64,000 bases of DNA. Source: an uncultured Clostridia bacterium (GTDB lineage Bacteria; Bacillota; Clostridia; Christensenellales; CAG-917). The notes below the pieces were generated by a model, which saw only the letters and a list, made by a program, of their open reading frames with translations, had not been told where the DNA came from and searched no databases. Within the stretch, counting starts at the first letter, position 1, and each line of letters begins with the position of its first letter. The stretch is taken from contig CANQNQ010000001.1 of NCBI GenBank assembly GCA_947625225.1, forward strand, positions 62,001 through 126,000. Direction: 5' to 3'. Below are positions 8,698-45,248 of this stretch, one piece after another. A program made the position numbers and the translations under genes.

Positions 8698-11600
8698 TTA
8701 TTGATTTTGTGTATTTTGTGTGATGGTCACGTTGTCCGTGCCGTAACCGCTGACGGTATATATCTTGCTCCCGCCGCTTACCGTAAACGTTTGATCGTCC
8801 GTCTTGCTTACTTTGCCCACTACGGCATTGTACGGATAATCGGATGAATAATAGTAAATTCCCGCGACTGTATGATCTTCGTCCAACCAATTGATATAGT
8901 ATGTATTTCCTGAGGCGGCACACAAATATCCCACATCACCCACTGACGCCATAACGCTTACACCGGAAATATTTACAGTCATGGTGACTTTCAATTCATC
9001 GTCGTTGACCATAATATCTACTGTAAAAGTGATGGGCTTTGCAGTATCGCCTTCAAGTTTTTTTACCGTAAAGCCCAATGCCACGTTATACCATGAAGAT
9101 CCATTGCCGTATATGATATAGCCATTGCTTACATGCACCGTAAATCCCTCTGCTGAGAATGAGTACTCGCCATTCGTCTCTTTGTATACAGGAATATATG
9201 CCGTCTTGTTTCTAAAATCAAATTTGGTTTTGCTCACAGCAAGAAAAGTATCGCCACTGTAGTCGTAAACGATATAACCTATGCCATTTTGCGCATCCAG
9301 ATAGCCCGTATGCTTAGCATCTGTCGAACCGTTTATATGCACCGTAATGCTGTTTTGAGTCAGTGCATAATCGCCCGCTTTGAACTCCGCTCCGTTTATA
9401 TAAAGCAGTTGTCCCAACCCGTTAAATATTACTTTGTCATTGTCACCCGACGACGCATAATATACGCCCGCTTCGGCTGCCGTGGGAGCGGAATAGGCGT
9501 GCCCCGCTATGTCAAGGTTGTATACCTTGTCGCCTTCGGGCATGAACACGACCACGCTTGAGCCGAATTGATAATAGCTGTAGCTTTTGCCATCCAACTT
9601 GGCGGTGTAGAACCCGTCCAGATCCAGGTGGCTGTCGCCGTTGTCGAATACGCCGTGCGTACCTACGGACATGCTGACAAAAGTATAGGTGTTGTAATCC
9701 GCGTCGTAGTCGCCCTCCACCTTCTGCGATTGCTTGTCGAACGTCCACTTTTTGCTCTCGCCGTTGAGCGTAAAGATGATGTTTTTGCCGTCGATGATGT
9801 AGGGAGCGGATGAGGTCACTCCGTCCTTGGTGTAATACAACATGCCCGAATAAGTGACGGTGGCGTCAAAAGTGGTGCCCTCGAATGATTTGCCGTCCAA
9901 TTTGACCATCGCCGCATGGAAGAGGTCATAATATACGCCCGCTTCTTCGCCAAGGGCGGACAGCGTCTTTGCATTGAAATAGAGAGCATGCTCTGTCGCG
10001 TTGAAATCTATCTCGCTCACGCCGTCTATGCCCGTCACGGTCAACACGTTGCCCGCCGCCGTATATGTGCCGCTGACAATGGAGCCGTCCTGTTTGTGAT
10101 ATTCTATCTTGCTGTAGCCGTCAATGATGACGTACTCGTTGTCTATATCGCCGAAAATACCCGCCTCGGCGCCTCTGAGCACCAGCTCGGTATCCTTGAA
10201 ATACCCGTAGATGACCTCGCTTTGCATTGCGCCCCCGATCATCTCGGTGAACACCTGTATCTTGAGAGGAACAGACTGCGAATCGTAGTATGACAAATTG
10301 TAACCGGGGACATGACTGAAATATATATATCCCTTGCCGCCGCTTGCAAAATCGATATAGGCGTAGCCGTTGCTTGTGCCGCTCATCGTTATGGTACCGA
10401 TGCCGGCGGTATACTGCTTGCCCTTGCCCGCAAAACCGTCCGTTTTGAACGTGGTGAAGCTGCCGTCCTCATACTTGGCGTCCTTGAAGTCCTCCTCTGC
10501 GTCGCCCACGTTGCCTACCTTGACGACAGGCAGACCTACCAAAGCCTGATTGAGCGCTTCCTGAAATACAATGCCTTTGCCCGGCGTCGGATCCCAGAAC
10601 GAACCCTCGGTCAATGCGTTGACAAGATATATTTTGACCGCCATTCCGTACTGCGCGATCTGATTGTACGTGACGGGTGCAAAGGCGCCGCTTACCAGCA
10701 CGGTGAACGCGCCCTGCCCTATCTCGGGGGCATCTTCCTCGGCGGTGAACAGCAGTTGCTGAAGGGAGCCTTGACCGAAGAAAGCAAACTCCAATATCTC
10801 CTTGACGTTGCTGCCTATGGTGATCCCGAACAGATTGCCCGAACTGAACGCAAAGCTGCCGACAGACGTGACATTGTCCCCTATCTCAAGGAACCTGACG
10901 TTGGGATTGAGCTGCCCTGCGCCGCCCGCTATCTTTGTGACCGCACTTGAAACGGTGTACCTGAGCGCATTGCCCTTGTAGTCATAGAGGTACTCGCCCT
11001 TGATGACTTCGCCCGCGGCGTTTGCCTCAATAAGTTGCACCGTCTTTGCGACCTTATCCAGGAAATAGGTATTTCTGTCTGCCGTGTCCTGCTCGGACAA
11101 AAATTCATATATGTGATCGCTCGGCTCGGCGCCGTCGTACACGGACGTGACCGTTGCCACGTCGCCCTTGTCAAGCACCGCGTTTATACCCATACTGAGG
11201 TATACTTTGACGTTGTCGCCGACATAGCGGCCGTGATATGCCACCGCCTCGGCGATCATCTCGTCCGACCACGTGAATATGGAGGCGTCCTCCACGTTCA
11301 ATTTGGTCATGACGTTATTGATGAAGCTTGCGTCATCGACGTCGCATTCCGCCAGCGCCTCCCATGCCGTCACCGAAGCGACTATGGACACGTTGTCATC
11401 TCCGCGGTCTCCGCTGCCGAACACGCCGCCGTCAACGGCAGGAAACGCGTTTTCAAACCCCACTTCTATCAGCGACGCGCTGTCAAACGCGCCGTCCCCG
11501 ATGTTCTCTACGCCGGAGGGGACAAACAGCAACGCGAGCGTGGAATCTTTGAACGCGTTTGCGCCTATGACCTTTGTGCCGCCCAAATCTATATATCTGA

Positions 11601-12438
11601 GCTTGCCGCCCATAAATGCCTCGGCTCCTATCGATCCGCCGAACGCGCTGAGGTCCACATCATACACATAGTTGTTGCCCTTAAACGCGCCGTCCGCTAT
11701 CTTGGTGACGCTTGCGGGGACCGTGATCGCATTTGCGGAAAGTTTGCTCATATCTCCTATCTCCGTAACCGCTTTGCCGTTGACCTCGGCCTTAATGGTC
11801 ACTGCGGCGGGATAGGCATAGTTGCCGCCGAATGCGGACACGACGTAAGTGTCGTCCTCTTTTTCAATGTATCTGAACCCATCCACAACATAGCCGTCGA
11901 CATAATATGCATACGCTTTTACATCGGCGGTCACCTTGTAGCCGACGCCGACCTCGGTCACGCCGTTCTCAAGAAGCCAACCCATAAAGGTCATCTTATC
12001 ATACGTCGGCGCAACGGGAATTTCCGCTTCGCTCAGCTCATGTCCGTATGAAACGGTCATGTTTTTGATAGTCACGTCGCTGCCCGACGAATCGTCGATA
12101 AACTCGACCGTGAAGGTCAGAACATTGTATTTGGCATAGACATTGATCTCCTTTTTGTCTACGACAAACGCCTCCTTGACCTCCGTCACGCCATCCTCAA
12201 GGAACCAGCCGACAAACTGCTTGCCCTCATACTCGGGCGCGGCGGGGATATCCGAATCCTTCAGACTGTACACCGAGTCGAACTCCAACGACTTTATATT
12301 TGTTTCGCCGTCAATAAAGTTCACGGTATATTTGGTCGGCTTATCTCCGTCCTTATCGTTGCACGCCGCCAGCACACCCAATGTAAGGATGAGCACAAGC
12401 ACGGCAACGATCACGCCGTAGATATACTTTTTCTTCAT
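8698..12438 (-). CDS. large surface lipoprotein with InlB-type and BspA-like leucine-rich repeats
   Basis: 1246-aa secreted lipoprotein. Signal peptide with lipobox (LGVLAAC) at residues 1-26, then two Listeria-Bacteroides type repeats (FVGWFLEDGVTEV and FMGWLLENGVTEV modules, about 38-175). A BspA-like leucine-rich repeat block follows (about 220-360, again near 490-590) with motifs such as VPASVTKIADGAF, VPSGVENIGDGAF and ITIGSNVKEILEFAF. The long C-terminal part repeats a YNTYTF/IDGKNIIFTLNG type beta module without a known name. Start ATG follows GGAGGAGAG. Likely an adhesin or host/substrate-binding protein. Its promoter contains a G10 tract suited to phase variation. Confidence 0.9.
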   Translation of the reverse strand: MKKKYIYGVIVAVLVLILTLGVLAACNDKDGDKPTKYTVNFIDGETNIKSLEFDSVYSLKDSDIPAAPEYEGKQFVGWFLEDGVTEVKEAFVVDKKEINVYAKYNVLTFTVEFIDDSSGSDVTIKNMTVSYGHELSEAEIPVAPTYDKMTFMGWLLENGVTEVGVGYKVTADVKAYAYYVDGYVVDGFRYIEKEDDTYVVSAFGGNYAYPAAVTIKAEVNGKAVTEIGDMSKLSANAITVPASVTKIADGAFKGNNYVYDVDLSAFGGSIGAEAFMGGKLRYIDLGGTKVIGANAFKDSTLALLFVPSGVENIGDGAFDSASLIEVGFENAFPAVDGGVFGSGDRGDDNVSIVASVTAWEALAECDVDDASFINNVMTKLNVEDASIFTWSDEMIAEAVAYHGRYVGDNVKVYLSMGINAVLDKGDVATVTSVYDGAEPSDHIYEFLSEQDTADRNTYFLDKVAKTVQLIEANAAGEVIKGEYLYDYKGNALRYTVSSAVTKIAGGAGQLNPNVRFLEIGDNVTSVGSFAFSSGNLFGITIGSNVKEILEFAFFGQGSLQQLLFTAEEDAPEIGQGAFTVLVSGAFAPVTYNQIAQYGMAVKIYLVNALTEGSFWDPTPGKGIVFQEALNQALVGLPVVKVGNVGDAEEDFKDAKYEDGSFTTFKTDGFAGKGKQYTAGIGTITMSGTSNGYAYIDFASGGKGYIYFSHVPGYNLSYYDSQSVPLKIQVFTEMIGGAMQSEVIYGYFKDTELVLRGAEAGIFGDIDNEYVIIDGYSKIEYHKQDGSIVSGTYTAAGNVLTVTGIDGVSEIDFNATEHALYFNAKTLSALGEEAGVYYDLFHAAMVKLDGKSFEGTTFDATVTYSGMLYYTKDGVTSSAPYIIDGKNIIFTLNGESKKWTFDKQSQKVEGDYDADYNTYTFVSMSVGTHGVFDNGDSHLDLDGFYTAKLDGKSYSYYQFGSSVVVFMPEGDKVYNLDIAGHAYSAPTAAEAGVYYASSGDNDKVIFNGLGQLLYINGAEFKAGDYALTQNSITVHINGSTDAKHTGYLDAQNGIGYIVYDYSGDTFLAVSKTKFDFRNKTAYIPVYKETNGEYSFSAEGFTVHVSNGYIIYGNGSSWYNVALGFTVKKLEGDTAKPITFTVDIMVNDDELKVTMTVNISGVSVMASVGDVGYLCAASGNTYYINWLDEDHTVAGIYYYSSDYPYNAVVGKVSKTDDQTFTVSGGSKIYTVSGYGTDNVTITQNTQNQ

Positions 12439-12481
12439 ACATCTCTCCTCCGTTTTTATTATAAATATTCACTATGGACCC

Positions 12482-12510
12482 ATAATACCCCCCCCCCAGT
12501 AATTTGTCAA
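12482..12510 (-). promoter_or_regulatory. promoter with G10 homopolymer in the spacer (putative phase-variable)
   Basis: On the minus strand: TTGACA (12505-12510), a 17-bp spacer of which 10 bases are a G run (12488-12497), and TATTAT (12482-12487). The start codon is 43 bp downstream. At 10 Gs the spacing is the optimal 17 bp; slippage of one or two Gs would move it to 15-19 bp. Confidence 0.82.
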
Positions 12511-12719
12511 GCAATTTTCTGTATGTTTATTCATTTTATATAATTTTATTTTCGATTGATGAATATAAAGACTTAATTCTTGATTTTTATGCAATTTTAA
12601 TAGAATTTTTATAAAAAATATGCATACGCATTATGCGTATGCACGGTTGGGGCGCGATGTGCGCTAAAAAGTAAATTTGTCCGACTGTTGCCCTTTTTCA
12701 GGCTTTTTTTGACCAAATA

Positions 12720-17601: not shown

Positions 17602-17964
17602 GGGGGTGTACTGGATTCGACAACCGTTTTAGGGCGGTGTAAGCACGTCGCAGGCTCGGCTGCGTCATCAACGGAACGTTAAAATTAAACGCAAACAAAA
17701 CTCAAAAGAACTCCACTATGAAGTTCGCCCTCGCCGCGTAATTCAGCGGCGCGTTGACCTGAGGTTTTCTGTTCCCTCAGCAATCAGCGTCAGAAAAACA
17801 GACAACGCCGACCAAGCGCCCGGTAGGTCGGTTGTAACACAGGGCTCATCAAACGGAGGTTTGTCGCTGGACCGACGGGCGAAACATTCAACCACCGACT
17901 AAACGTGTAGAAAACGCCGATGAGAGGCGGCTGGACCGGGGTTCAACTCCCCGCACTTCCACCA
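17602..17964 (+). ncRNA. ssrA: transfer-messenger RNA (tmRNA)
   Basis: One-piece tmRNA of 363 nt that rescues stalled ribosomes. The 5' end GGGGGTG pairs with CACTTCC near the 3' end (allowing G-U), forming the acceptor stem with discriminator A and an encoded CCA at 17962-17964. The T arm reads ccggggttcaactccccg. The tag reading frame begins at GCA 17691 and encodes ANKTQKNSTMKFALAA before TAA at 17739-17741; the ALAA end is the usual ClpXP degron. The middle of the molecule has the expected pseudoknot-rich sequence. Its 3' end is followed by two further partial copies of the acceptor/T-arm and terminator. Confidence 0.97.
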
Positions 17965-42084: not shown

Positions 42085-45000
42085 TCACCAATCGGAATTG
42101 TCCGTCGGGTACGCCAACTGATCGCTGTACACGCCTATTTCAACATACATCAGATACCCGTCTCCGTAGTACGCATGCGGTACGCCTATCGCTATCTTGA
42201 CATCGCCCTTCTGATACATATCATAGCCCTTGACCGGGTCCTTTTCGGCGCAAATCGTCCAGCCCTGCGCTTTCAACGCGGCTACGTAGTCAGCAACAAA
42301 CTGGTCGCGAGCTTGCTCGGTCTGGAAGTCCACGGTGCTGAAATATGCGAAGTGTTCGCCATAATCTCTGCTCCAGCCGACGCCCGACTTCCAACCGTGT
42401 TGCGCAAAGTATCCGTCCATTGTGTTGTGCGGTTGCACGTACGGGATGTCGGGGAAGTTCCAATCTCTCATGTCTTCCCACAGCATGCTGTTTGCCTCTT
42501 CCCAGGAAGTGGGATCCGGCTCATCTTTTGCCCCGGCATAGTAGAGGTCGATCGAGGCGGTGTTGAACTCGGAGTAAACAATGGATATCTTAAGGTCTTC
42601 GCCATACCATCTTACCGTCGTAGAGGCGGAGCCGAGATAGTTGCCGCTGAGCGTGATCTCCACGGGCTTTGTCCAATCGGTATTGTAGCTGAAAGCAGTG
42701 GATATGTACCCCATAAATGTGAAGAATCCGGAGCCGGGAGTGAGGGAGACATAGACTCCGTCCGCGCCCGCCTTTTGTCCGAAGATCTCAGCCGCAAATT
42801 TGAATGTGGGATAGCGCGTGATGGGATTGCCGTTGCCGTCCTTGTCCCAATCCGTATTGTGATGCTTGGTCATCCATACCTGATTGTCTTTGACCGTGTA
42901 CTCGTAGTACTTGTTGTCGCCCTCCTTGTGGATACCGCTACGCGTAGTATAAATGTTATCCGTTGTAGTGATATCTATCGCGTCCTCGGTGAATATATAA
43001 GTTGATTGGGTGTTTCCATACGTGATCACAGCCTTGTAGTTGTGAAGCTCTGCCATGTTTTTAATAGCGGTCGCGATGCCGTCATGGTAAGTCTCATGCT
43101 TATATGGTTCAATGTGAGTTATCTTTGCGGTGCCTTTATCGGAAAATGCATAAATCAGCTCGCTGCCGTACTTCATGGTGATCTCAGCACCCTCTATTTC
43201 ATCCACAAGGGAACGCATAGGATCGATTATACCCGTTATCTTGGTTATCTGACCATTTTCAACAGTGAAGTACAGGTCGTCCGTAAGCAGATCCGACTGC
43301 CACAGCTGCACGCAAATGGTCTGCATCTCCACGCCGCTGGAGCTGCCGATGAAGTGATAGGTGTGCCCGTCGTCAAAGCTGACCCAATTGGCGGCGGAGA
43401 TATCATCATAGCTGGTGAAGATGTTGGTGTAGGTCGAATTCAACCAAGATGCATAATATGCCTCATATTCATCGCCGAAGTTGTGCGCCTGTTTGGCAAT
43501 ATTGTTGTTCCAATCGAGGTACTCGTCACACACATATCTTCCGTCGGTCACATATTTTCTTGCCCATGTCACCTTTTGGCTTTCTTTATCCCTTGCTTCA
43601 AACTGGAAGGCGTCCGTGGTGTCGGGAATGTCCCAAACGTCGTCGCTGAGGTCTACGTCCATGTCTTCCCAGATGAGCGTGAGCTCCTGCACGCGCTCCA
43701 CCGCCGGTTTATAACCGCTGTTGTAGTAGTCCTCGCTGTAGTTGAGCCAAGTTTCTGTACCTTGAAGCTTCAAACTGCCCTGAAGTTGTGCGTACAACTC
43801 GGCTGGCAACGCTGTGCCGTTTGAAACGCCCTTTACGTTGACGAAATACTCGGCGTAAACGGACTCGTCCTCGGCAAGTGCGCAGGTGATGGTGGTCGTG
43901 CCGACGCTTTGACCCACGAGGATGGTATCGGGCATGTTGCCCTGCAAAGTCAGGGAGTTGGAAACATAGGCGACGCTCTCATCGGAAGAGGACCACACAA
44001 GGTCTTGTCCCTTGTACTTGTCGGCGAGATGCGCGTAAAGTGTGCGCATGCCGCCCGTGTACAGGTCGCCGTACATCCACAGCTGGATGTCATTGCTTTC
44101 CGCCTGCTTGGTGGCAAGGGTGATCACGATGGTGACCGCCTTTGCGGGCATTGTGAATTGATACGTCCTTGCCATGCCGTTTATGCCATGGATGGGGACT
44201 TGCTCGGAAGTCACGCTCTGCAGATACTTATCGCTGTTGTTGACCGCGACGGTAAACGTGACTGTCGCGCCCGCCTTGTAGCCGTCCTCGGCAAGTCCGC
44301 CGATGGTGTATTCGCCGCTTGCCGCATAGCTCACCTGATAGAGCGTATCTTCGGGAGCGGTGCTCTTGAGCAGCACGACAAGGTAGATATTGGAGTCTAT
44401 CATCGTGAAGCTGAAGTAGCCGTCGCCCAAATCGACTATCTCGATGTCGCTGACAGAAGTGACCTCGTCAAGAGCCATTTGGGCCGCATTGACTTCGACG
44501 TGGAATATTACTTGGTCGCCCTCGGCGTAGCCCAATCTGTCAAGTCCCGTGACGGTGAAGTCCGCGCCTGCGTTGTATACCTCGACATTGTACTTGGTCG
44601 CTTCGCTGTCCGCATTTTTCAACACAATCGCAATGGACACGTCCTTGTCGGGCATGGTGAAAGTGTAGCTGCTGCCCGCGGCGTTTATGACAACGTCGTC
44701 GGACAAGACCGCGCTGACGATCTTGTCGGGATCCGTGACCTCTATGGTGAAGCTGACGGGTGCGTTCGCCTCATAGCCCTCGGCAGCAAGTCCGTTGACG
44801 GTGAAGTCGCCCGTGTTGCGCACGGTGACGCTGTGCTTCACGCCAACTGTGCCGTTGACGTAGCTGGCGACCGCCGTCCTGGAAGCGGTAGGCGTGTAAC
44901 CGACATCGACCTTCAGGGAACCTATGTACCAGCCCATAAAGGTCTGCCCGGCATGGTCGGGACCCAGAGGAATATCCTCCGCAGTCAACGCCGCGCCCGC

Positions 45001-45159
45001 CTTGACCTCCGCCTTGTACACCACATTGGTGCCGTCCTGGAAGGTGATCGTGTAGGTGCCGCCGTCACCGCCCTTGTCGTTGCACGCGACAAGCAATGTG
45101 ACAGCCAAAAGCAGTACCAGCACGGTGCATATCACGCTGCATAATGCTTTTCGTTTCAT
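42085..45159 (-). CDS. large surface lipoprotein with InlB-type module, tandem beta repeats and Ig-like domain
   Basis: 1024-aa exported lipoprotein. Signal peptide and lipobox (TLLVAC) at residues 1-26; one Listeria-Bacteroides-like module (FMGWYIGS, about 35-95); then three tandem repeats of about 80 residues, each with (T/A)(G/S)(D/E)(F/Y)T(V/I)(N/G/T)GL...GY(E/A/K)....V.F..EV and ending in a TMP(D/A)K-like strand (about 105-350); then a Big_2-like domain (LVWSSSDESVAYVSNSLTLQG). The C-terminal 500 residues are unassigned and rich in aromatic residues. AGGAGG precedes ATG. Related in design to the 8698-12438 lipoprotein. Confidence 0.87.
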   Translation of the reverse strand: MKRKALCSVICTVLVLLLAVTLLVACNDKGGDGGTYTITFQDGTNVVYKAEVKAGAALTAEDIPLGPDHAGQTFMGWYIGSLKVDVGYTPTASRTAVASYVNGTVGVKHSVTVRNTGDFTVNGLAAEGYEANAPVSFTIEVTDPDKIVSAVLSDDVVINAAGSSYTFTMPDKDVSIAIVLKNADSEATKYNVEVYNAGADFTVTGLDRLGYAEGDQVIFHVEVNAAQMALDEVTSVSDIEIVDLGDGYFSFTMIDSNIYLVVLLKSTAPEDTLYQVSYAASGEYTIGGLAEDGYKAGATVTFTVAVNNSDKYLQSVTSEQVPIHGINGMARTYQFTMPAKAVTIVITLATKQAESNDIQLWMYGDLYTGGMRTLYAHLADKYKGQDLVWSSSDESVAYVSNSLTLQGNMPDTILVGQSVGTTTITCALAEDESVYAEYFVNVKGVSNGTALPAELYAQLQGSLKLQGTETWLNYSEDYYNSGYKPAVERVQELTLIWEDMDVDLSDDVWDIPDTTDAFQFEARDKESQKVTWARKYVTDGRYVCDEYLDWNNNIAKQAHNFGDEYEAYYASWLNSTYTNIFTSYDDISAANWVSFDDGHTYHFIGSSSGVEMQTICVQLWQSDLLTDDLYFTVENGQITKITGIIDPMRSLVDEIEGAEITMKYGSELIYAFSDKGTAKITHIEPYKHETYHDGIATAIKNMAELHNYKAVITYGNTQSTYIFTEDAIDITTTDNIYTTRSGIHKEGDNKYYEYTVKDNQVWMTKHHNTDWDKDGNGNPITRYPTFKFAAEIFGQKAGADGVYVSLTPGSGFFTFMGYISTAFSYNTDWTKPVEITLSGNYLGSASTTVRWYGEDLKISIVYSEFNTASIDLYYAGAKDEPDPTSWEEANSMLWEDMRDWNFPDIPYVQPHNTMDGYFAQHGWKSGVGWSRDYGEHFAYFSTVDFQTEQARDQFVADYVAALKAQGWTICAEKDPVKGYDMYQKGDVKIAIGVPHAYYGDGYLMYVEIGVYSDQLAYPTDNSDW

Positions 45160-45219
45160 ATAGTACCTCCTATATTATAGGATATCAAAGAATATACCTA
45201 TATTATCTATATGTCATAT

Positions 45220-45248
45220 AGTATCCACCCAAGTATGCAATTTGTCAA
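45220..45248 (-). promoter_or_regulatory. putative promoter of the 1024-aa lipoprotein gene
   Basis: TTGACA (45243-45248), 17-bp spacer, GATACT (45220-45225). It shares the TTGACAAATT start with the phase-variable promoter at 12482-12510 but has only a GGGTGG where that one has ten Gs. The rest of 45250-45587 shows no gene. Confidence 0.5.

Follow-up and report, generated by a model that had tools for sequence, protein, structure and literature searches.

A poly-G tract in the promoter spacer of a lipoprotein gene from an uncultured Clostridia bacterium, a probable phase-variation switch

The window analysed here, a stretch of 64,000 nucleotides from an uncultured Clostridia bacterium, carries on its minus strand a gene for a lipoprotein of 1246 amino acids (8698-12438) and, in front of it, a promoter with a long G run in the spacer. 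Read from the sequence, this promoter consists of a perfect consensus -35 hexamer (TTGACA, 12505-12510), the G-free spacer part AATTACT (12498-12504), a homopolymer of ten G (12488-12497) and the -10 hexamer TATTAT (12482-12487), all on the minus strand, and the total spacer length is 17 bp. The distance from TATTAT to the ATG at 12438 is 43 bp and includes a good ribosome-binding site, with the Shine-Dalgarno sequence GGAGGAG at 12445-12451 (minus strand). The first-pass annotation had described exactly this arrangement, and direct reading of the sequence confirms it in every element. The site at 12482-12510 matches the consensus in 11 of 12 bases and is the top promoter-like site of the region, and its G10 is the only run of G or C of at least 7 nucleotides in the 64-kb window.

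The lipoprotein has a signal peptide with an N-terminal lipobox (LAAC), and Pfam identifies a Listeria-Bacteroides repeat (PF09479, one match) and BspA-type leucine-rich repeats (PF13306). The earlier description of the protein as repeat-rich needs a nuance: the repeats seen by Pfam amount to the one Listeria-Bacteroides match and two LRR_5 stretches. The NCBIfam models gave a weak match to the streptococcal LRR adhesin HupY/LrrG, far under the model cut-off. Structure prediction for the C-terminal 867 residues reached a mean pLDDT of 53. The product is predicted to be located at the surface, and it is likely that it is an adhesin or a surface antigen. A PTS EIIC gene of the same orientation lies next upstream, and a terminator-like hairpin with a T run (12644-12620) is found behind it. 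Together with the promoter below it, this hairpin suggests that the lipoprotein gene is a transcription unit of its own, probably driven by the G10 promoter alone. A paralogous lipoprotein gene of 1024 amino acids is located on the minus strand at 42085-45159; its homologous promoter, TTGACAAATTGCATACTTGGGTGGATACTAT (about 45217-45247), contains a short broken G patch in place of a homopolymer. The window also contains a tmRNA gene (17602-17964), which encodes the tag peptide ANKTQKNSTMKFALAA.

The genome assembly to which the window belongs comprises 1.52 Mb in 31 contigs and contains eight G runs of at least nine nucleotides, four of which are located between a TTGAnA-type -35 and a TAnnnT -10 element (p about 8e-9). 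At C2:166300, TTGACAAATTACT-G9-TATTAT precedes a gene for a DUF898 membrane protein; its core, including the letters AATTACT, is identical to the window promoter except that the tract is G9. Another lipoprotein gene is preceded by TTGAAAAGTAACT-G11-TATTAT (C3:127879), and on contig C14 the sequence TTGACAATC-G11-TTG-TATCCT lies upstream of a gene for a 59-aa protein with four cysteines. An interrupted tract, G5TG5, is found in front of a paralogous lipoprotein gene on contig C9, and the promoters of further lipoprotein paralogues are clearly homologous, with G patches that are degenerate or absent. Elsewhere in this genome, TTGACA promoters have spacings of 17 bp (n=35), 16 bp (n=11) and 18 bp (n=3), with a mode of 17.

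Tract length differs between promoters that are otherwise alike. Within the genus, the two full-length orthologues that match best (41% identity) have the promoters TTGACATATTGCC-G10-TATTAT and TTGACATATTGCC-G9-TATTAT, which are identical base for base save for the tract, and their flanks are about 94-96% identical. As one genome per species was compared, this G10/G9 difference is one between orthologous promoters of sister species. Two more distant orthologues (in genomes G003 and G009) have no tract, and the promoter of one allows the reading TTGACA-17-TATTAT; the base spacing of this promoter is thus 17, and the tract is a state specific to a lineage. Unequal lengths were also found in other homologous pairs, in Treponema (G9/G11), Synergistales (G8/G11) and Bacillales/Erysipelotrichaceae (G10/G9), and pairs upstream of exported proteins with identical promoter flanks differ by G10/G9, G9/G11 and G10/G9. 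Altogether, tract length was unequal in 38% of 47 related pairs, which are not independent of each other. The 193 distinct G-tract promoters have lengths from G8 to G15, with G8 in 37, G9 in 83, G10 in 54, G11 in 12 and few longer ones, a distribution that begins at G8 because the searches demanded at least G8 and left shorter alleles uncounted; their spacers range from 11 to 20 bp. Tract length did not correlate with the length of the rest of the spacer in the order set, and in the named set a weak correlation was seen that is conditioned by the search pattern. The core of the window promoter had no match in viral contigs, where spacer-tract patterns occurred in five contigs only.

The first-pass annotation had treated the site as an isolated one, and here our results differ: it belongs to a large class in the genus and the order. 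The pattern TTGACA-N3-9-G8+-N0-3-TANNNT was matched 324 times, in 94 of the 395 genomes from the order, and a few of these matches are one site counted twice when the -10 element can be placed in two ways. The richest genome contains up to 14 matches, and the reversed control pattern had none in the 395 genomes. When 30 tracts of G9 or longer were sampled from 20 genomes, eight were located, by a strict promoter test, in the spacer of a near-consensus promoter, compared to 0.33% of positions drawn at random from this DNA (binomial p about 8e-14); since these 20 genomes were chosen as holders of such promoters, 8/30 is not an order-wide rate. The position of the G10 in the spacer of the window promoter is not due to chance. 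The strand matters as well: in the family, a G run was found in the spacer position in 13 of 34 genomes and a C run in four. Furthermore, centrally interrupted G patches were present in 20 of the 395 genomes versus 94 with a pure run, despite the threefold number of interrupting letters. This rarity of interrupted tracts argues for a homopolymer that acts through slippage, not for a G-rich protein site.

The genes downstream of such promoters are enriched for exported proteins. Among the matches listed for named groups, 64 of 92 downstream genes encode a signal peptide, compared to 62 of the 321 other genes located on the same stretches (odds ratio 9.5, p 6e-19), and the odds ratio for a lipobox among these listed matches is 14; both features were called with a simple home-made predictor. 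The named groups among the matches listed include uncultured Clostridia and Bacilli, Treponema, Lachnospiraceae, Selenomonadaceae, Synergistales, Saccharibacteria, Streptococcus ovuberis and others, and some of the single matches in these groups will be due to chance. The comparative evidence fits the earlier reading of a phase-variable surface gene, but the class also holds non-surface genes that this reading does not cover. In several genomes of one genus, the gene for class II fructose-bisphosphate aldolase (L227, L233, L237 and L266, in genomes G103, G347, G090 and G326, respectively) has a promoter with a G8-G9 tract in the spacer and a mostly constant spacing of 18 bp. The spacing is likewise mostly 18 bp in the G-tract promoters of a TIM-barrel isomerase-like gene, and genes for ABC transporter ATPases were also found behind G-tract promoters. 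Aldolase and isomerase-like genes behind G-tract promoters of rather constant spacing are odd for a random switch, and the aldolase was not expected of a switch for surface antigens.

We consider it probable, with a rough probability of 0.72, that the G10 is the variable element of a slipped-strand phase-variation switch of a surface lipoprotein, of the type known from Neisseria meningitidis porA and Treponema pallidum tp0126. The homopolymer stands between the -35 and -10 elements as it does there, it is pure and has a length in the range that is taken to be hypermutable on the basis of other bacteria, and the G10 allele has the optimal spacing of 17 bp. Slipped-strand mispairing at replication would add or remove one G, each change would shift the distance between -35 and -10 by 1 bp, and the strength of the sigma-70-type promoter would be altered in a graded manner. 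Because the TTGACA promoters of this genome cluster at 17 bp, G10 is expected to be the strongest (ON) state; G9 (16 bp) and G11 (18 bp) would be weaker, and tracts of G8 or shorter and of G12 or longer would be near OFF. A population would become a mixture of cells that express the lipoprotein, presumably exposed at the surface, and cells that do not, from which it might benefit. That the promoter is controlled by slippage, as had been proposed for this site, is supported by the comparison of genomes, namely by the lengths of G9, G10 and G11, the purity of the tracts, the bias for the G strand and the exported proteins and lipoproteins encoded downstream.

Loss of mismatch repair was considered as a cause of the tracts and rejected. 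The genome contains an intact mutL gene, and slippage at mononucleotide runs is therefore presumably held down. In the order as a whole, tract promoters are present in 6 of 13 genomes in which mutL is absent and in 88 of 382 others, a weak association (p 0.09).

A different function of the tract is conceivable. It might be a fixed element, that is, a stiff or G-rich spacer or the binding site of a regulator, which sets promoter strength, rarely changes in length and tunes expression without switching. Some paralogue families indeed have one fixed length, with G8 in the four copies read in genome G346 and G9 in four copies in genome G113, each with a spacer of 15 bp, and this is a counterpoint to the switch. 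The 18-bp spacing conserved upstream of fba and the isomerase-like gene points in the same direction, and the degenerate, G-rich and interrupted patches that homologous promoters carry in the window's own genome would also be expected of a fixed G-rich element. A binding site, however, ought to tolerate interruptions, yet pure runs prevail by 94 genomes to 20; moreover, the lengths of G8 to G15, the spacers of 11 to 20 bp and the promoters that are alike in all but the length of the tract speak against a fixed element. Owing to the uniform lengths in G346 and G113, the housekeeping genes and the intact mutL, this explanation retains a minor but real share of the probability, clearly below that of the slipped-strand switch.

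It is improbable that slippage in an ordinary promoter produced the tract as a neutral feature that has little effect on regulation. Most promoters and most of the distant orthologues have no tract, and with G9 to G11 the spacer measures 16-18 bp, a range tolerated by RNA polymerase; both observations would agree with neutrality. It does not predict the concentration of long G runs in promoter spacers (8/30 versus 0.33%) and in front of genes for exported proteins. Even less probable, and largely refuted, is an origin by chance or as an artefact of assembly or sequencing, such as the poly-G reads of two-colour chemistry. The window tract is located deep in a contig of 290 kb with unique flanks on either side, and the same architecture is present in orthologues and in assemblies of other groups, while the reversed control gave 0 of 395. 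What speaks for an artefact comes from contig ends: several contigs of genome G346 break off within a G run or directly behind it, one of them with TTGACA-G20 up to the contig end (L340), and this could be due to heterogeneity of the tract or to a poly-G sequencing artefact. Three of the 59 tracts are located no more than 60 bp from the end of a contig, compared to 0.29 expected, but this excess is weak evidence of heterogeneity since poly-G sequencing dropout explains it equally well.

Homopolymers in promoters are known to cause phase variation in a few pathogens. The closest systems to the slipped-strand switch proposed here have a poly-G tract in the spacer as well. In N. meningitidis porA the spacer contains 9 to 11 G in front of a gene for a major surface protein, and the strong state is near 17 bp (PMC3639595; PMC7864442); escape variants with 9G and 10G have been described for an 11G strain (PMC3639595). 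In contrast to the lipoprotein of an uncultured Clostridia-like bacterium, PorA is an outer-membrane porin of a Gram-negative pathogen, and length polymorphism within the species as well as an effect on expression have been demonstrated there, whereas switching at our locus is inferred from sequence. The poly-G of tp0126, encoding an OmpW homologue in T. pallidum, is likewise located between -35 and -10 and works best at a spacing of 17 nt (PMC7864442). That system belongs to a spirochaete and is the sole spacer-type locus in that report, whereas several are present per genome here. In T. pallidum tprE/G/J/L (poly-G) and N. meningitidis opc (poly-C), the length of a homopolymer also governs the transcription of surface genes. 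The tprL tract, which has 7-11 G in vivo, spans part of the -10 element, however, and the opc poly-C covers the -35 region (PMC7864442); since these tracts lie outside the spacer, spacing is not their mechanism.

Stochastic switching of surface and regulatory genes at the promoter level is also found in gut anaerobes, with the invertible promoters of Clostridioides difficile and gut Bacteroidales (review PMC11868660), but these require a recombinase and inverted repeats. An invertible promoter is not supported at our locus: the search for recombinase-type inverted repeats around the promoter yielded just imperfect AT-rich pairs (12455-12470 / 12603-12618, 88%) and a 10-nt pair. Our literature search, which did not extend to subscription papers, found no report on poly-G promoters in Christensenellales, Lachnospiraceae or Clostridia. 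The mechanism is already known; new are the locus and, judging by the literature searched, the lineage.

If the slipped-strand reading is correct, poly-G promoters would be a common means of varying surface lipoproteins in uncultured host-associated Clostridia, Bacilli and others, one that sequence alone suffices to recognise, and the presence or absence of surface genes in such genomes would tell little about their expression. A wider interpretation is speculative and in our view rather doubtful: the poly-G spacer promoters might together make up a large transcriptional SSR phasome of this order of uncultured gut-type Clostridia, recur in other host-associated groups and act mostly on lipoprotein genes and in part on core metabolism (such as fructose-bisphosphate aldolase), so that both surface and metabolism would be bet-hedged.

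G runs of the same genome were also found at other kinds of sites. The longest is a G13 just beyond the window (C1:128720-128732), which is neither crossed by a long reading frame nor flanked by -35/-10 elements. A G10/C10 tract at C2:88250-88259 (L021) lies in the 3´ part of a histidine kinase-like frame of 475 amino acids, about 49 codons from its end, and is a candidate for coding phase variation by frameshift. Possibly, the G9 at C2:119430-119438 (L024), in an open frame of at least 916 codons with an N-terminal membrane segment, is another coding contingency tract.
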